Source of the DNA: Ectothiorhodospiraceae bacterium
Lineage (GTDB): Bacteria; Pseudomonadota; Gammaproteobacteria; Nitrococcales; Aquisalimonadaceae
DNA: 51,433 nt
Reading direction: 5' to 3'
NCBI GenBank assembly: GCA_020831885.1
Contig: JAFIFU010000022.1
Location: 1-51,433 of the forward strand
Part shown: one piece after another, positions 4,887-12,960 of the stretch
Layout of the letters: each line of letters begins with the position of its first letter
Position numbering within the stretch: position 1 is the first letter of the stretch
Position numbers and translations under genes: made by a program
Notes under the pieces: model-generated
The model's input: only the letters and a program-made list of their open reading frames with translations
Told to the model about the DNA's origin: nothing
Databases searched by the model: none

Positions 4887-5170
4887 TGGGGCTGGATGTC
4901 TACGCCATTGCGGCCGCCGTCCTGGTCGGCCTGGGCTTTCACGGCCTGATCACCCAGCCGCACCCGCTGAAACGGCTCTTGGCGGTGAACGTGGTGGGCA
5001 ACGGGGTGTTCCTGGCGCTGATTGTGCTGGCCCGTCGTCTGCCGGATGGTCCCGATCCCATTCCCCACGCCATGGTCCTCACCGGCATCGTGATCGCGGT
5101 CAGCGCCACGGCGTTCGGCCTTGCCCTGGTGCGCCGGCAGGCCCGGGACGCGGAGGAGCGGGATGACTGA
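4883..5170 (+). CDS. mrpC: Antiporter subunit MrpC (NuoK-like, MbhG)
   Basis: The 95-residue protein has three membrane helices and the MrpC/NuoK pattern GLITQPHPLKRLLAVNVVGN followed by PIPHAMVLTGIVIAVSATAF, typical of MrpC. The frame is open upstream, but the ATG at 4883 overlaps the previous stop (ATGA) and gives the family N-terminus. MrpC is the NuoK homologue of the antiporter arm. Confidence 0.93.
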   Translation: MMGLDVYAIAAAVLVGLGFHGLITQPHPLKRLLAVNVVGNGVFLALIVLARRLPDGPDPIPHAMVLTGIVIAVSATAFGLALVRRQARDAEERDD

Positions 5171-6617
5171 GATGCTGCCGGTTCTGGCCGTGTTTCTCCC
5201 GCTGCTGGCGGGTGTGATCCTGTTCCTGTCGGGCCCCGGCCCCGGCGGACTGTGGGCGCTGGGGGGCATCGTGCTGTCCGCGGCGCCGTCCCTGCTGCTG
5301 GTGCGGCAGGTGGCGGTGATGGGCACCATCGAGCATTTGATGGGCGGCTGGTCCGTGCCGCTGGGTATCCGGCTGATGGCGGACGGGCTCAGTGCGCTGA
5401 TGATTCTGCTCACCGCCGTGGTGGGGGTGCTGGTGTCTATCCACGCCCTCGGGCTGTTCGACCGGCGTGATGCGGCCTCGCGCCAGTTCTGGGTTCTGTG
5501 GCCGCTGCTCTGGGGCGCGTTGAACGCCCTGTTTCTGTCCGCCGATCTGTTCAATGCCTACGTGACCCTGGAACTGGTCACCCTGGCGGCGATTCCGCTG
5601 GTGCTTCTTGCCGGCAGCGCCCGGGCGGTGAGCGCGGCGCTCCGTTACCTGATTCTGGCGCTGTTCGGCTCCATGCTTTACCTGGCCGGCGTGGCGCTGA
5701 TCTACGGTCTGACCGGTGTGCTGGACATGCAACTGGCCGGGGAGCGTCTGGCCGGCGGGGGTTGGGTGGTGAATCTCGCCGCGGCCCTGATGGTGACGGG
5801 GTTGCTGGTGAAGGCGGCCATCGTGCCTTTCCATCTGTGGCTGCCGGATGCCCATGGCAGCGCCCCGGCACCGGTCAGCGCGCTGCTTTCGGCCCTGGTG
5901 GTCAAGGCTGCCGTGTACCTGCTGCTGCGTTTATGGAGCGGCCCGTTGCTGGAGCCGCTGTCTCAGCCGTCCGTGGCCTGGCTGCTGGCGGGCCTGGGGG
6001 TTGCCGCGATTCTGTACGGCTCGGTGCAGGCGCTGCGGCAGCCGCGCCTGAAGCTGGTGGTGGCCTATTCCACGGTGGCCCAGTTGGGTTACATGCTTCT
6101 GTTGTTCCCCATGGCCGGGCTTCTGGCCTGGCAGGGGGTGATCTACCACGGGGTGGCCCATGGTGTTGCCAAGGCCGCCTTGTTCCTGGCGGCCGGGAAC
6201 ATCCTGTACCAGATCGGCCACGACCGGATCGTGGACCTGCGGGGCAGCGGAACCGTGCTGGCGGTGAGCTTCGGCACGTTTGCCATTGCCGGCATCAGTA
6301 TCATGGGGCTGCCACCCAGCGGCGGTTTCCTGGGGAAATGGCTGCTGCTGCAGGCCACCCTGGGTGCGGGCGCCTGGTGGCTGGCGCTGGTTATCCTGGC
6401 GGGCGGGCTGTTGGCCGCCGGCTACGTGTTTCGCGTGCTGCGGGCCGCCTTTCAATTGCCGGACAGCGACGCCGAGGGCATGGAGCCGCCGGTGCGGCAT
6501 ATCGGCCCGCTGATGCGCTGGCCCGCCTTGGTGCTGGCCCTGCTGGGTATCGCGCTGGGTTTCGCCGGTGAACCCCTGCTGGCGCTGCTGGGCGACATGC
6601 CCGGGGGGGCGGGATGA
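5163..6617 (+). CDS. mrpD: Antiporter subunit MrpD-like 1 (proton-translocating family)
   Basis: The 484-residue, roughly 14-helix protein belongs to the NuoL/M/N-MrpA/D family. The TM5 glutamate essential in MrpD is at residue 137 (AYVTLELVTLAAIP). The channel lysines are K217 (LLVKAAIVPFHLWLPDAHG) and K248 (ALVVKAAVYLL). The ATG at 5163 overlaps mrpC by 8 bp; an upstream extension in the same frame lies within mrpC and was rejected. It is the first of three consecutive antiporter-like subunits and the one with all expected charged residues in standard context. Confidence 0.92.
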   Translation: MTEMLPVLAVFLPLLAGVILFLSGPGPGGLWALGGIVLSAAPSLLLVRQVAVMGTIEHLMGGWSVPLGIRLMADGLSALMILLTAVVGVLVSIHALGLFDRRDAASRQFWVLWPLLWGALNALFLSADLFNAYVTLELVTLAAIPLVLLAGSARAVSAALRYLILALFGSMLYLAGVALIYGLTGVLDMQLAGERLAGGGWVVNLAAALMVTGLLVKAAIVPFHLWLPDAHGSAPAPVSALLSALVVKAAVYLLLRLWSGPLLEPLSQPSVAWLLAGLGVAAILYGSVQALRQPRLKLVVAYSTVAQLGYMLLLFPMAGLLAWQGVIYHGVAHGVAKAALFLAAGNILYQIGHDRIVDLRGSGTVLAVSFGTFAIAGISIMGLPPSGGFLGKWLLLQATLGAGAWWLALVILAGGLLAAGYVFRVLRAAFQLPDSDAEGMEPPVRHIGPLMRWPALVLALLGIALGFAGEPLLALLGDMPGGAG

Positions 6618-8098
6618 TCTACCAGGCGCTTCCGCTATGGGTGCTGATGACCTCCCTGGTGGCCGCTCTGGTGGTGTTCGTCGCGGGGGAACGGCGGCAC
6701 CGGTTGCGCATCACCGTGAACCTGGCTGCGGCAGTGTTCAAGCTGCTGCTGGTGGCCGTGATGCTGGTGGGCGTGCTCCGGGGCGACCTGTTCCTGGTGC
6801 GTTTCGCCGTGCTGCCGGGCGTGGAGCTGATTCTTCACGCGGACGCCTTGACCATGCTGTTCACCACGCTCTCGGCGGTGCTCTGGCTGGTGACCACGGT
6901 ATACGCCATCAGTTACCTGGAGCAGCGTCCCAACCGGGCACGCTTCTTCGGCTTCTTCAGTCTGTGCGTGGCTGCAACCATGGGGATCGCCACCGCGGGC
7001 AATCTGTTCACGTTTTTCGTCTTCTACGAACTGCTGACCCTGGCCACCTGGCCTCTGGTGGTTCATAACGGCTGGCCGAAGGCCATGGCGGTGGGTCGGT
7101 TGTACCTGCGCTATACGCTGGGCGGTGGCGCGGTGCTGCTACTGGGGATCGTGGCGCTGAACAGTCTGGGGGTGCCCGGTGATTTTCTGGCCGGCGGCAG
7201 CCTGGACGGCGTGGAGAAGACCCATCGGGCGGCCGTATTCGGAATCTTTCTCCTTCTCCTTGGAGGGCTGGGTGTGAAGGCGGCGGTGGTGCCCCTGCAC
7301 GTCTGGCTGCCCAGCGCCATGGTGGCGCCGGCGCCGGTGAGTGCATTGCTGCACGCGGTGGCGGTGGTCAAGGCCGGTGCGTTCGGGATCGTGCGTGTGG
7401 TCTATGACGTGTACGGGCTGGAGGTGATGACGGAACTGCAACTGGGCACGCTGTTGGCGGCGGTTGCCAGCGTCACCATTATCTACGGATCGTTGAAGGC
7501 CATCGCGCAGACCGACCTGAAGCGCCGGCTGGCCTACTCCACGGTGAGCCAGGTGTCCTACATCGCCCTGGGGGTGGGCTTGGGCAGCCCTCTGGCCACG
7601 GTGGGTGGGCTGGTCCATCTGGTTCATCAGGGGCTGATGAAGATCACGCTGTTTTTCTGTGCGGGCAACTACGCGGAGACCCACGGCATCCACAAGATCA
7701 CGGAGCTGAACGGTATCGGCCGCCGGATGCCCTGGACCACGGCTATGTTCACGCTGGGCGCCTTCGGCATGATGGGCGCGCCGCCGCTGGCCGGGTTTGT
7801 CAGCAAATGGTACCTGGGCATGGGTGCGCTGCAGGCGGAGGCGCTGTGGGTCATCCCGGTGCTGCTGGTCAGTACGGCGCTGAACGCCATCTATTTCCTG
7901 CCCATGCTCTACCGGGCCTGGTTCGCACCCCCGGCGGACCGGGAGGCCGCTGCCGGACTGGCCGAGGCCCGGCTCGGGCTGTTGGTGCCGACGCTCTGTA
8001 CCGGTATCGCGGCGTTGGGTGCCGGTGTGCTGGCCGGCTTGCCGTTGAGCCCGTTGTCCTGGGTGGCCTTCATCGTGGCGCAGGAGTACGGTGAATGA
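6614..8098 (+). CDS. Antiporter-like subunit 2 (NuoL/M/MrpD family)
   Basis: The 494-residue polytopic protein is paralogous to its neighbour. It keeps the TM5 glutamate E139 (FFVFYELLTLATW) and lysines K222 (GVKAAVVPLHVWLPSAM) and K253 (AVAVVKAGAFGI). The stretch VHLVHQGLMKITLFFCAG is typical of proton-translocating subunits. It overlaps the flanking genes by 4 bp. It may fill the place normally taken by the NuoL-like half of MrpA, although it lacks the MrpA C-terminal extension, which is encoded at 3948-4886. Confidence 0.9.
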   Translation: MIYQALPLWVLMTSLVAALVVFVAGERRHRLRITVNLAAAVFKLLLVAVMLVGVLRGDLFLVRFAVLPGVELILHADALTMLFTTLSAVLWLVTTVYAISYLEQRPNRARFFGFFSLCVAATMGIATAGNLFTFFVFYELLTLATWPLVVHNGWPKAMAVGRLYLRYTLGGGAVLLLGIVALNSLGVPGDFLAGGSLDGVEKTHRAAVFGIFLLLLGGLGVKAAVVPLHVWLPSAMVAPAPVSALLHAVAVVKAGAFGIVRVVYDVYGLEVMTELQLGTLLAAVASVTIIYGSLKAIAQTDLKRRLAYSTVSQVSYIALGVGLGSPLATVGGLVHLVHQGLMKITLFFCAGNYAETHGIHKITELNGIGRRMPWTTAMFTLGAFGMMGAPPLAGFVSKWYLGMGALQAEALWVIPVLLVSTALNAIYFLPMLYRAWFAPPADREAAAGLAEARLGLLVPTLCTGIAALGAGVLAGLPLSPLSWVAFIVAQEYGE

Positions 8099-9732
8099 CC
8101 CCGCTGCTGCCCCTGTTGCCGCTGCTCACTCTGCTGGCCGCCCTGCTGCTGGTGCTACCGGGCCTGCGCCGCGTCGTGTTTCTCGCCGGCGCCTTCCCGG
8201 CAGGGGTACTGGCCGTGGCGCTGGCGCTGGGTGCCGGTCCGGACCCGGTACACCTGGACTGGTTGCTACTGGGTTCGGCCTTCGGTCTGGATCCGGTGGG
8301 TCGCGCTGTCCTTGGCCTGGCGGGTGTGCTTTGGCCGCTGGCCGCTCTAACCTCCTTGCCCCTGCTGGGCGGCAGCCACGGCCGCCGTTACGGCATCTGC
8401 TTTCTGCTCACCATGAGCGGGAACCTGGGGCTGTTGGTGTCTCAGGATGTAGCGGGCTTCTATTGCTGGTTCGCATTGATGACCTTCGCCGCCTGCGGCC
8501 TGGTGTTGCATGACGGGTCCGACGAGGCCCGACGTGCCGGCCGCGTCTACCTGGTGCTGGCCATCATCGGCGAACTGCTGTTGCTCGCCGGGCTGTTCTC
8601 CGTGGCCGCGCAGGCGGGCAACCCTGCCATGGCGGAGCTTCCGGCCGTATATGCGGGGCTGGACCGCCCGGCGTTGACCGCCGGTCTCATTCTCGCCGGT
8701 TTTGCCGTGAAGATGGGGGTGGTACCCCTGCATGTCTGGCTGCCATTGGCCCATCCCGCGGCACCAGTGCCCGCCAGTGCGGTATTGTCCGGGGTTATCC
8801 TCAAGGCGGGCCTGGTGGGCTGGTTGCGCCTGGTGCCGACCGGAGCGCTCCACCAGGTGGAGCCGGGTCTCGTGCTGGCCGGTCTCGGTCTGGCGGGCGC
8901 CTATCTTGCCGCATTGGCGGGCTGCTTTCAGCAGCGGCCGAAAACCGTGCTGGCCTATTCCAGCGTCAGTCAGATGGGGCTGCTGACGCTGCTGGTGGGG
9001 CTGTTGCTGGCGGGGTACGGCCCGCCGGATGCGCTACTGGCGGCCATTGCGCTGTTCGCTGTCCACCACGGTTTGGCGAAGGGGGCCCTGTTTCTGGCCG
9101 TTCCGGTACTGAAGGCCGGCAACCGGCTGGCAGCGGGGTTGACGCTGATTCCGGCGCTGTCTTTGGTGGGGGTGCCGCTCACCTCCGGTGTGCTGGCCAA
9201 GGCGGTATTCAAGGATGCCGTGCCGGAGGCCCTGGTTTTCTGGGTGACGCTCAGCTCTGTGACCACCGGGCTGATCCTGCTGCGTTTTCTGGTGCTGGCC
9301 TGGCCACGGGGGCCGGATCGCCACCTGCCGGAGCCGTCGGTGCTGCTGGGCTGGTCCGGGGCGTTGCTGGCATCGCTGTTGGTCCCATGGCTGCTGGCGG
9401 ATGGGCGCTGGCTGGGCTATACGCTGCAATTCGGCAGCCTGTTGGATGGGCTCTGGCCGCTGGCAGCGGCCCTGGCGCTGGCGCTGGCCGCGGCCCGGTG
9501 GACCGGCCGCTGGCCCCTGCTGCCGGAGGGCGATCTGGTACTCCCGGCGGAACGCGGGGTGAATGCCCTGCGCCGGCAGATCCGTCGGCTGTTGCCGCTG
9601 TCCGATGCGGAACGGGAGGCGCCCCGGTGGCCGGAGGAACGGCGCCCGTTGGCGGAACCCGGGTTGGGGCTGGCGGTACTTCTCATGCTGGGCTTGACCC
9701 TGATCCTGGCCTGGCTGTCGGTGTCGGGCTGA
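8095..9732 (+). CDS. Antiporter-like subunit 3 lacking the TM5 glutamate
   Basis: The 545-residue membrane protein has the Proton_antipo_M fold: channel lysines K206 (GFAVKMGVVPLHVWLPLAH) and K237 (GVILKAGLVGW), and the VHHGLAKGALFLAV segment. The position aligned with the TM5 glutamate is alanine (A127 in FYCWFALMTFAAC); the codon is gca. The C-terminus has a long polar loop (about 480-525) before a final helix. It could be a structural or regulatory member rather than a full proton pathway. It overlaps the previous gene by 4 bp and is followed by a 50-residue membrane protein. Confidence 0.88.
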   Translation: MTPLLPLLPLLTLLAALLLVLPGLRRVVFLAGAFPAGVLAVALALGAGPDPVHLDWLLLGSAFGLDPVGRAVLGLAGVLWPLAALTSLPLLGGSHGRRYGICFLLTMSGNLGLLVSQDVAGFYCWFALMTFAACGLVLHDGSDEARRAGRVYLVLAIIGELLLLAGLFSVAAQAGNPAMAELPAVYAGLDRPALTAGLILAGFAVKMGVVPLHVWLPLAHPAAPVPASAVLSGVILKAGLVGWLRLVPTGALHQVEPGLVLAGLGLAGAYLAALAGCFQQRPKTVLAYSSVSQMGLLTLLVGLLLAGYGPPDALLAAIALFAVHHGLAKGALFLAVPVLKAGNRLAAGLTLIPALSLVGVPLTSGVLAKAVFKDAVPEALVFWVTLSSVTTGLILLRFLVLAWPRGPDRHLPEPSVLLGWSGALLASLLVPWLLADGRWLGYTLQFGSLLDGLWPLAAALALALAAARWTGRWPLLPEGDLVLPAERGVNALRRQIRRLLPLSDAEREAPRWPEERRPLAEPGLGLAVLLMLGLTLILAWLSVSG

Positions 9733-9770: not shown

Positions 9771-9923
9771 ATGAAGCTGGACCTCCCGTTGCTGATTATC
9801 GGCCTGCTGCTGATCGCCAGCGTGGCAGCCTATGCCACCGGACGCCTGAGCTATCCGGTGGGCTTGCTGGTATTGAGCCTGTTGTTCATCGGGCGGCTCA
9901 TGCAGCTCGCTCAGCGCGACTGA
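9771..9923 (+). CDS. 50-residue membrane protein ending the antiporter operon
   Basis: The ATG at 9771 has GGAG about 8 bp upstream. The product starts MKLDLPLLIIGLLLIASVAA, has two predicted membrane helices joined by a short ATGRLSYP loop, and ends RLMQLAQRD. I do not recognise a family. It lies 38 bp after subunit 3 on the same strand, so a role as a small accessory subunit is plausible but unproven. Its last 26 bp overlap the 3' end of the convergent methyltransferase gene. The ribosome site and codon use support it; its size keeps confidence moderate. Confidence 0.6.
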   Translation: MKLDLPLLIIGLLLIASVAAYATGRLSYPVGLLVLSLLFIGRLMQLAQRD

Positions 9924-10470
9924 TCACGAAAAGCCTGGGCGCGGTTTCCGGCGTTCCCGGTGGGTTTGCCAGCCGCCAGTCCCACTCCGCGGATGGCAGG
10001 GCCTGGCACCAGGCGGCCACCTGCCGCGCCTCCTCGGCGCCCCCGGGATGCCCGGTATAGGCCATCACGGTACAGCGCCCGCCGGGCAACAGCCGGTCCC
10101 GGACCGCATCCAGGGCGGTGCAGGTGGTGGCGGGCCGGGTGGTGGTTCCGTGATCGGCTCCGGGCAGATAACCCAGATTGAACATCGCCGCCCGCAATGG
10201 TCCGGTGTCCAGTGTGGACAGGTTCTCGTGGCCCATGCACCGGAGTTCCACCCGGCAGTCATGGATAAGGCCCAGGCGGCGACGGGTGGCGGCCACCGCC
10301 TGGGCCTGGATATCCAACGCCCAGACGGTACCGCCGGGCCGCACCCGGCTGACCAGAAAGGCGGTGTCATGGCCGTTGCCCATGGTTGCGTCCAGTACCG
10401 TGTCACCGGGAGCGATGACCTCTGTGATCAGCGCATGGGCCAGGGTGGTGAGGCTCGGGCTTCGTCTCAC
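9898..10470 (-). CDS. mnmM: Class I SAM methyltransferase, YtqB/MnmM family
   Basis: The 190-residue protein fits the rRNA_methylase (PF06962) group. The SAM motif I is LDATMGNGHDTAFL (about residues 26-39), and NLGYLPGADH (about 98-107) is the family signature. Bacillus subtilis YtqB was shown to be MnmM, which methylates 5-aminomethyl-(2-thio)uridine at tRNA position 34; assigning that activity here is inference. The start is GTG at 10470, overlapping the stop of the upstream FAD oxidoreductase gene as GTGA, so the two are translationally coupled. No ATG gives a complete motif I. Confidence 0.82.
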   Translation of the reverse strand: MRRSPSLTTLAHALITEVIAPGDTVLDATMGNGHDTAFLVSRVRPGGTVWALDIQAQAVAATRRRLGLIHDCRVELRCMGHENLSTLDTGPLRAAMFNLGYLPGADHGTTTRPATTCTALDAVRDRLLPGGRCTVMAYTGHPGGAEEARQVAAWCQALPSAEWDWRLANPPGTPETAPRLFVISRAERAA

Positions 10471-11528
10471 CCTGCTCGCCCCGGAGGCAGGTAATGACGC
10501 AGATGCCAGGCTGCGGGTAGCGGCGTCTGTCGAACCAGATGCGAGGCCAGCGCCAGGGCCGCCGGCGGCGCCACCAGCGTGCCCCGGGAACCCAGCCCGC
10601 TGAACACGGCAAGCCCGGGGTAGTCCGGATGCCTGCCGCAGAACAGGAGGCCCTGGCGATTACCCGCACGGACCCCCGCCAGGTGCTCGCGGAGGGTCAC
10701 CGGCGGGCAGGGATGCAGCATGTCCTCCAGAGCGGCCAGCAGTTCATCACGTCCATGCCGGGTGGGGGTGGGTTCGCTGTGGCGCTCGTAGGTGCCGCCC
10801 AGCCAGACCCGTTCCGCATCCAGCGGGATCAGGTTTTTCCCCCGACTCAACATCTGCTGGCCCAGCTCCGGACGCCGCTGCAGCACCAGCGCCTGGCCGT
10901 GGGACATGCGCCAGGGCAGGTCCGCCAACCAGGGCCAGTCGCGGCTGCGATAGCCCTGGCAGGCGATGACGCCCCGGACCGCCCGGCCGCGCCAGCGGAC
11001 CGATCCGTCGCGGGCGAATGCCAGCGAGTCGGCGTCCACGGTGGAAGATACGAGCCGGTTACTGTCTCGCAGCCAGGCCCGGGTGGCATCCAGGAAGGCG
11101 GGCAGGTCCACCTGCCCCGCCCGGACTTCGACGCAGCCCAGTGGGGCGTTGAGCCTGGAGCAGGCCGGCGGGGACGGTGGGGCGATCAGGCCGGCCGTCC
11201 GGGCATCCCGGCGGCGGTTCTCCACCATTTCCAGTTCCTGGGGGGCGCGGATCAGGCGGAGCAGCGGTCCGGTGTGCAGCAGGGGAGTGCCCAGACGCCG
11301 TTCCAGCAGCCGCCAGTGTGCGATGGCGCCGTGAAACCAGATCTCCGCCGGGGCGGGCGCCTGGAGGCGCGGGCCGGTGAAGGGGTTGAGCAGTCCGGCT
11401 GCGGCCCGTGTGGCATTGCCGGTATCGCCGGGATCGGCCACCAGGATTTCCGCCCCCAGCCGGTCCAGGGCATGCGCCAGCAGACTGCCCGCAAGTCCCT
11501 GACCGATAATGAGATACGGGAGGTCCAT
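10467..11528 (-). CDS. FAD-dependent oxidoreductase, MnmC oxidase-domain-like
   Basis: The 353-residue DAO-superfamily flavoprotein has a Rossmann motif at the N-terminus ([16 protein letters not shown], GxGxxG at 9-14). The pattern [17 protein letters not shown] and the C-terminal [18 protein letters not shown] resemble the oxidase domain of MnmC, which converts cmnm5U34 to nm5U34 in tRNA. Coupling by a 4-bp overlap to a MnmM-type methyltransferase strengthens that reading; other DAO functions (amino acid oxidase, ThiO-like) remain possible. The ATG at 11528 starts directly at the FAD motif. An ATG at 11546, with GGA just upstream, would add six residues. It is divergent from rimO. Confidence 0.78.
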
Positions 11529-11616
11529 GGTTGTGCCGGCCTGCATCGTTCCACGTTTGCCCTGTCTGCGCTGGCCCAGTAGCATACCGCATCTGCAGGA
11601 AGACCCGGGAAAGCCC

Positions 11617-12960
11617 ATGTCCGCCCCCATCGATCAGTCAACCAAGGTTCCACGTATCGGTTTTGTCAGCCTGGGCTGTCCCAAGGCCCTGGTGGATTCC
11701 GAGCGCATCCTCACCCAGTTGCGTATCGAAGGCTATGAGGTGGTGGGGGGCTACGACCAGGCGGATCTGGTGGTGGTGAACACCTGCGCCTTCATCGAAG
11801 CGGCCCAGGAGGAGTCCCTGGATGCCATCGGTGAAGCCTTGACCGAGAACGGCAAAGTGGTGGTGACCGGCTGTCTGGGCAGCCGGGGATCCGTCGTGCG
11901 TGACCGTTTTCCGGAAGTGCTGGCGATTACCGGGCCCCAGGATTACGAGGCGGTGATGAAGGCGGTGCATGCCCAACTGCCCCCGCCGCCACGCAGTCCG
12001 TTTACCGATCTGTTGCCGGACAGTGGTGTGAAGCTGACACCGAGACATTATGCTTATCTAAAAATTTCAGAGGGATGCAACCACAAGTGCACATTTTGCA
12101 TTATCCCTGACCTGCGGGGGCGACTGCGCAGCCGGCGTGTGGATGCGGTGCTGGGAGAAGCCGAGCGGCTGGTCCGAGACGGCGTGCGGGAACTGTTGGT
12201 GGTATCCCAGGATACCTCTGCCTACGGCGTGGATCTGCGTTACGAGAGCGCCCCATGGCACGGTCGGGAACGACGCACCCGGATGACGGAGCTGGCGGAT
12301 GCTCTGGGTGACCTGGGTGTCTGGGTGCGGTTGCACTATGTCTATCCCTATCGCCATGTGGACGAACTGATTCCGCTGATGGCCCAGGGGAAGGTGCTTC
12401 CTTACCTGGACATGCCGCTGCAGCATGCGAGCCCCGGGATTCTCAAAGCCATGCGTCGTCCGGCGGGCGGCGAACAGGTGCTGGAGCGGCTGCAGCGTTG
12501 GCGGGACATCTGTCCGGACCTGGTGGTGCGCTCCACGTTCATCGTCGGTTTCCCCGGGGAAACCGAGGCGGATTTCGAGCAGTTGTTGGCGTTCCTGGAG
12601 GAAGCCCGCCTGGATCGTGTCGGCTGTTTCACGTATTCCCCGGTGGATGGGGCCCGGGCCAACGCGCTGCCGGGAGCGGTTGATCCGGAGGTGGCCGAGA
12701 TGCGTAGAGAGCGGTTGATGGCGCTCCAGGCCGGGATCAGTGCGGGAAAGCTGCGGCAGTTCGTGGGCCGGACCCTGCAGGTGCTGGTGGATGCGGTGGA
12801 CGGTGATGAAGCCCTCGCCCGCAGCTACGCCGATGCGCCCGAGGTGGACGGTCTGGTGCACCTGGTCGGCGCGGAGGGACTGCGTCCGGGGGATTTCGTG
12901 GATGTCCGGATCCATGATTCGGACGAACACGATTTGTACGGCACGGCGGGGGAGCCCTGA
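11617..12960 (+). CDS. rimO: Ribosomal protein S12 methylthiotransferase RimO
   Basis: The 447-residue radical-SAM enzyme adds a methylthio group to Asp of ribosomal protein S12. The N-terminal UPF0004 domain carries the second-cluster cysteines C21, C57 and C86 ([25 protein letters not shown]). The radical-SAM motif is CNHKCTFC (C154, C158, C161). A C-terminal TRAM domain ends the protein. The ATG at 11617 has GGGA 6 bp upstream; the longer upstream frame is not conserved in the family. Codons around 12046-12109, at the radical-SAM motif, are unusually AT-rich (CTA, AAA, TCA, ACA) compared with the rest of the gene. Confidence 0.96.

Follow-up and report, generated by a model that had tools for sequence, protein, structure and literature searches.

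Which enzyme prepares the substrate of MnmM in bacteria that lack MnmC? MnmEG yields cmnm5U or nm5U, MnmC1 removes the carboxymethyl group with FAD (PMC9976899, PMC3648344), and B. subtilis MnmM methylates nm5s2U (Cho et al. 2023, PMC9976899). Cho et al. 2023 describe the enzyme equivalent to MnmC(o) as unknown both in organisms with MnmM and in those with an orphan mnmC(m), such as Bacteroides; an operon or fusion of an FAD oxidoreductase with the methyltransferase had been expected, and none was present among the genes common to three Gram-positive genomes (PMC9976899). This question is raised by a contig from an Ectothiorhodospiraceae bacterium (the window, 51,433 nucleotides in its entirety), in which a gene for an FAD oxidoreductase runs directly into an mnmM gene (Table 1). 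The original prediction held that this pair replaces the bifunctional MnmC, the second step being taken over by an unrelated enzyme.

Table 1 Features of the FAD-mnmM locus in the window
Feature	Coordinates	Strand	Evidence
mnmM, 190 aa, GTG start	9898-10470	-	NF053511 equivalog, 173.1 bits
Stop-start overlap GTGA of the FAD gene and mnmM	10467-10470	-	Sequence
FAD oxidoreductase, DAO fold, 359 aa from ATG 11546	10467-11546	-	PF01266, AlphaFold, mnmM linkage
rimO, divergent	11617-12960	+	TIGR01125, 571 bits

The methyltransferase exceeded the curated cut-off of 135 bits of the NF053511 model (tRNA_U34_MnmM) and contains both of the YtqB/MnmM signatures previously pointed out, DATMGNGHDT and NLGYLPGADH. 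The accompanying claim that it is not of the MnmC type also held: a Pfam search of the protein matched PF06962, and PF05430, the MnmC-type family, was absent from its domain matches. The protein could be aligned to two chains of solved YtqB/MnmM structures, 8h0s and 4pon. In the part of the B. subtilis study considered here, the activity of bsMnmM was nearly abolished by changes at D34, N101, Y104, Y141, H144, K110 and K11 (PMC9976899). In the alignment to 8h0s, five of these seven residues are identical in the window protein (D35, N98, Y101, Y138 and H141), the counterpart of K110 is H107, and K11 falls outside the aligned stretch. Across 30 mnmM loci, the window included, D35 and N98 are each conserved in 30, Y101 in 25, Y138 in 29 and H141 in 28. 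Because of the equivalog match, we infer that the window MnmM is a SAM-dependent nm5(s2)U34 tRNA methyltransferase.

A search for a full mnmC elsewhere in the host genome, which is 99.99% complete, returned none: PF05430 had no match at E<=0.001, with the E. coli control matching, and TIGR03197, the MnmC oxidase model, had no match above its cut-off. The mnmG gene was found at 896 bits. The best match in the host to TIGR01212, which we take to be the model covering the radical SAM protein YtqA/MnmL, reached 26.3 bits, far below the cut-off of 180.

To define the distribution of the pair, 369 genomes of the window's class, which we take to be Gammaproteobacteria, were scanned with NF053511. Some match at E<=0.001 occurred in 316 genomes, and 29 were over the cut-off; the mnmM-positive set (n=31) consists of these 29 together with G333 (133.9 bits) and G270 (89.7 bits, over part of the model), the next match scoring 40.2 bits. 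When only the window protein was used as query, 25 of the 30 mnmM loci considered (29 over the cut-off and one just under, the window included) had the FAD gene upstream of mnmM and in the same orientation. Of these 25 pairs, 21 offer a possible mnmM start codon no more than 80 bases from the stop codon of the FAD gene, and four offer none. In a reverse scan of genome contigs, the queries were ten FAD rows taken exclusively from mnmM-linked loci, and the best 80 of at least 570 FAD relatives were kept, a sample tilted to close relatives. Of these 80 loci, 59 have mnmM directly after the FAD gene (Methylobacter, Methylomonas, Mariprofundus, Nitrosomonas and others), 4 have it no farther than about 3 kb away and 14 lack it nearby, and in 3 a contig end intervenes. 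The two sets of loci are not fully independent, because their genome pools overlap (locus L149 seems to be part of G079). The FAD-mnmM pair is a conserved operon-like unit; linkage in one operon had been proposed from the window, where the four-base overlap of the two genes was read again on the minus strand. No fusion of the two was present among the 30 mnmM and 25 FAD ORFs of the first set, or among the 63 mnmM and 80 FAD ORFs of the best 80 loci. A promoter and terminator scan brought up a single terminator-like site, located inside the FAD gene, a number as expected from shuffled sequence, and nothing resembling a promoter.

The divergent orientation of rimO, also described in the original prediction, was verified, and the gene was considered as a functional part of the unit and rejected, because within the fetched flanks it accompanies the pair in the window alone (1 of 30 mnmM loci, 0 of the best 80 FAD loci). 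Convergent with mnmM, at 5121-9732 (+), are three successive large ORFs with PF00361 matches (NADH:quinone oxidoreductase/Mrp antiporter). Elsewhere, a small ORF immediately preceding the FAD gene (L101:3598-3984(+), the locus in which its position was checked) matches PF08888 'HopJ' at 149 bits, and its cluster occurs in 27 of the best 80 FAD loci; the family name suggests an effector, and the setting suggests a housekeeping role.

Since descent alone can conserve gene order, the neighbourhood might reflect chance or lineage with no functional link. We regard this as hardly credible, because the pair spans 17 family labels or one fewer (25 linked pairs plus one genome, G079, with both genes unlinked), and because the next commonest neighbour cluster reaches 27 of the best 80 FAD loci. 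The two genes also co-occur when unlinked, in G079 and in 8 of the 14 genomes that lack mnmM near the FAD gene. The other 6 of these 14 had no mnmM match at E<=1e-15, and overall an FAD gene was found without any mnmM match in 6 of 16 genomes examined. In three of these six, for example Methylovulum psychrotolerans, PF05430 was likewise unmatched. These three loci (L169 of M. psychrotolerans, L167 and L179) point to a pathway that ends at nm5U, to a third methyltransferase, or to an incomplete assembly.

We then compared gene content in 71 genomes: the 31 mnmM-positive genomes and 40 hand-picked for completeness, with NF053511 scores of at most 41 bits. A model of the FAD family scored at least 350 bits in 26 of the 31 mnmM-positive genomes and in none of the 40 mnmM-negative ones, where the top match was no more than 116 bits. 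Of the 26 genomes, 25 supplied rows of the FAD model itself; the remaining one, G079, is not in the model and carries the genes unlinked, and hence constitutes an independent case. By family label, the 31 mnmM-positive genomes fall into 19 families and the 26 FAD-positive ones into 17. The FAD family is missing from G322, G155, G266, G362 and G270. The first four contribute the mnmM loci L033, L041, L042 and L043, and in the MnmM proteins of L041, L042 and L043 the sequence NLGWLPR stands where NLGYLPG is expected.

MnmM and the MnmC-type methyltransferase were mutually exclusive in this comparison. PF05430 was matched at E<=1e-30 in 0 of 31 mnmM-positive and 14 of 40 mnmM-negative genomes (Fisher p 0.00013, kinship ignored), and mnmM together with a strong PF05430 match occurred in none of the genomes examined. 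In G001, G256 and G270 the PF05430 matches were weak (23.6-24.7 bits); we attributed them to other methyltransferases and left them uncounted. With PF05430 in just 14 of the 40, most other mnmM-negative genomes therefore have neither route by these tests. One genome of the same order as the window, G072, encodes a fused MnmC, and thus the swap lies within one order.

The FAD ORF spans 10467-11630 (-), and its likely start is ATG 11546 or ATG 11528, the latter judged from relatives. The protein matches the DAO family PF01266 at 95 bits. It scores 58.8 bits with the MnmC1 model TIGR03197 (MnmC_Cterm; curated cut-off 174.2) and 51.4 bits with the glycine oxidase ThiO model TIGR02352 (curated cut-off 250.8). 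Five relatives that we scanned gave higher scores for ThiO (82.9-115.1 bits) than for MnmC1 (51.7-90.1 bits), all below the cut-offs, and profile comparison of the family was nearly equal for MnmC1 (200.9) and ThiO (210.2). Because these proteins fall under both cut-offs, they form an unnamed subfamily of glycine oxidase/MnmC1 stock, for which NCBIfam has no name. The AlphaFold model of the window protein (73 sequences; pLDDT 93.5, pTM 0.92) returned iminodiacetate oxidase, glycine oxidase and CmiS2 as the first Foldseek matches in the PDB, with MnmC from rank 15. In VIA-align, CmiS2 and ThiO each gave a Z of 35.4 and E. coli MnmC 34.6 (3awi; 3.0 A over 340 residues), a tie within Z 1. The resemblance to the MnmC oxidase domain noted at the outset is thus real in sequence and structure, but it is not exclusive to MnmC.

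These comparisons bear on an alternative that makes the FAD protein a ThiO-like oxidase of glycine or small amines, serving thiamin synthesis or catabolism and linked to mnmM as a transcriptional neighbour only; MnmM would then use nm5U made directly by MnmEG with ammonium. Consistent with it are the higher ThiO scores of the five relatives, the structural tie of ThiO and CmiS2 with MnmC, and a host genome in which no ThiO match rises above the cut-off. However, all six family members scanned, the window protein included, lie far under the ThiO cut-off, and a motif separates the two groups. In G-x-G-x-[KR]-G (G319-x-[KR]321-G322), residue 321 is K or R in 56 of 57 FAD-family rows; its equivalent is R in 14 of 15 MnmC1 rows but N in all four ThiO rows. 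Thiamin synthesis also fails to explain the 26/31 versus 0/40 split by mnmM, or the association with PF05430 in Bacteroidia described below. We consider this alternative improbable.

The partner that the FAD family keeps in genomes, mnmM, is a further difference from ThiO, with which it shares a carboxylate-site arginine. This residue, Arg293, is kept in 57 of 57 FAD-family, 15 of 15 MnmC1 and 4 of 4 ThiO rows. E. coli MnmC carries R567 and G578 (Table 2 of PMC3648344, the part of that paper relied on here); the Arg293-Gly304 spacing of 11 in the FAD protein equals theirs, and by this spacing Arg293 takes the place of R567 (PMC3648344). Thus the FAD protein has the DAO fold, the common arginine and the G-x-G-x-[KR]-G motif, all features of MnmC1. 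The FAD proteins are basic: the pI of the window protein is 10.2, and the median is 8.4 for the mnmM group, against 6.6 for both MnmC1 and ThiO. The window copy deviates from its relatives at W204 (N in 54 of 57 rows), Q298 (D in 53 of 57) and S316 (N in 56 of 57). With these changes at near-invariant positions, the window copy is among the more divergent ones, and its activity is therefore less certain than that of, for example, the Methylobacter copy.

Phylogenetic analysis separated the 15 MnmC1 rows from the rest by one branch (SH-aLRT 99), and the FAD family by a second (97). One MnmC row in the tree, a divergent fused frame of 632 aa from G224 (PF05430 2.1e-6), stands outside the 14 PF05430 genomes counted above. 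A root of the FAD family inside MnmC1 was examined with two distant outgroups, which failed to group together (44 rows): a grouping of the FAD family with MnmC1 gave a p-AU of 0.057 and one with ThiO 0.394, both retained by the test, and a grouping of MnmC1 with ThiO apart from the FAD family was disfavoured (0.022). On sequence, the FAD family is separate, and neither the scores nor the trees place it closer to MnmC1 than to ThiO.

Taken together, the lack of mnmC in the host, the conserved pairing, the co-occurrence with mnmM and the mutual exclusion of MnmM and PF05430 support the original prediction, and make it probable, on sequence and modelled structure, that the bifunctional MnmC is replaced here by two separate enzymes, the products of mnmM and of the FAD gene. 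In the proposed scheme, MnmE-MnmG would place carboxymethylaminomethyl on the wobble U34, as in the established pathway. The FAD protein would oxidise the bond between C-alpha and N of this N-substituted glycine, and hydrolysis of the imine would leave nm5(s2)U34, which MnmM would convert to mnm5(s2)U34. We infer from the fold, the invariant residues and the co-occurrence that the FAD protein takes over on tRNA the step of MnmC1, and it is accordingly a predicted carboxymethyl-removing oxidase that takes cmnm5(s2)U34 to nm5(s2)U34 (cmnm5U to nm5U). Co-occurrence indicates association with a pathway rather than a reaction, and the FAD gene is found in some genomes with no match to a known methyltransferase; the protein might therefore act in the same pathway at another step or on another substrate, for example in side-product repair or on another U34 intermediate. 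The fold, the carboxylate-site arginine and the known gap in the pathway favour oxidative carboxymethyl removal instead, and we hold such a different role to be distinctly improbable.

The predicted oxidase and MnmM would carry out the same two-step chemistry as the bifunctional MnmC of E. coli, with its MnmC1 (MnmC(o)) and MnmC2 parts. The window differs from that system in using two separate proteins with a methyltransferase of the MnmM type, and in having an FAD protein that scores under the MnmC1 cut-off and does not fall within the clade formed by the 15 MnmC1 rows. CmiS2 acts on an N-substituted glycine, its substrate being a polyketide starter. Like CmiS2, IdaA and the phage enzyme NGTO (5-N-alpha-glycinylthymidine FAD-dependent lyase, 8z79) are DAO-fold FAD enzymes among the structure matches, and the substrates of all three are N-substituted glycines, as predicted for the FAD protein; those of IdaA and NGTO are iminodiacetate and phage DNA instead of tRNA. 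In the MnmL-MnmM pathway of Gram-positive bacteria, Jaroch et al. 2024 reportedly assigned the step before MnmM to the radical SAM protein YtqA, and the mnmM gene is said to be paired there with the gene of the preceding-step enzyme. MnmM takes the last step in both pathways, but the preceding enzyme would be a predicted FAD oxidase here in place of the radical SAM protein reported there. The MnmL route appears in the table and reference list of a review (PMC12548931). Judged by titles and the beginnings of abstracts, and leaving Jaroch et al. 2024 aside, no paper among the matches listed describes the FAD-mnmM pair.

The FAD family extends beyond the MnmM organisms. Two of the best 80 FAD loci, L108 and L164, come from MAGs labelled Bacteroidia, and their flanks look Bacteroidetes-like by their genes. 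In Bacteroidia, the class of the second of these MAGs (G377), 82 of 119 genomes contain the FAD family, with one member each at E<=1e-40. Among 80 genomes examined, PF05430 was matched at E<=1e-8 in 37 of 43 FAD-positive versus 17 of 37 FAD-negative ones (Fisher p 0.00024, kinship and genome completeness ignored), and it was missing from the other 6 FAD-positive genomes. The PF05430 frames listed are 75-288 aa long, which leaves no room for an additional oxidase domain. A general FAD-PF05430 operon in Bacteroidia was ruled out, because both genes are on one contig in only two of the 37 double-positive genomes: G496, about 0.7 kb apart and divergent, and G432, about 5 kb apart. The G496 methyltransferase passes the MnmC2 model NF033855, and one ORF lies between it and the FAD gene. 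In a Bacteroidia genome, an ORF of 219 aa without a Pfam or NCBIfam match (L254:2592-3251(+)) overlaps the FAD gene and is divergent from a stand-alone MnmC2.

In the best explanation, the FAD subfamily would serve MnmM in Proteobacteria, and probably a stand-alone MnmC2 in many Bacteroidota. We give about even odds to the wider proposal that this DAO subfamily is the missing cmnm5U-to-nm5U oxidase both of MnmM proteobacteria and of Bacteroidota with MnmC2 only, and would be a third solution besides MnmC1 and MnmL. In that case the subfamily was possibly recruited separately from glycine-oxidase stock and mixed with two unrelated methyltransferases.

The FAD-mnmM pair is an operon of the kind that Cho et al. 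2023 expected, here in Gram-negatives, and the sequence and structural evidence makes the unnamed FAD family a strong candidate for the missing pathway step. Many bacteria without the fused MnmC carry this conserved pair. The family also occurs in roughly two thirds of the Bacteroidia genomes searched, and the open question of the oxidase becomes a simple complementation test in E. coli. If the proposal is true, a broad, unnamed family of 'FAD-dependent oxidoreductases' would gain a function in decoding.
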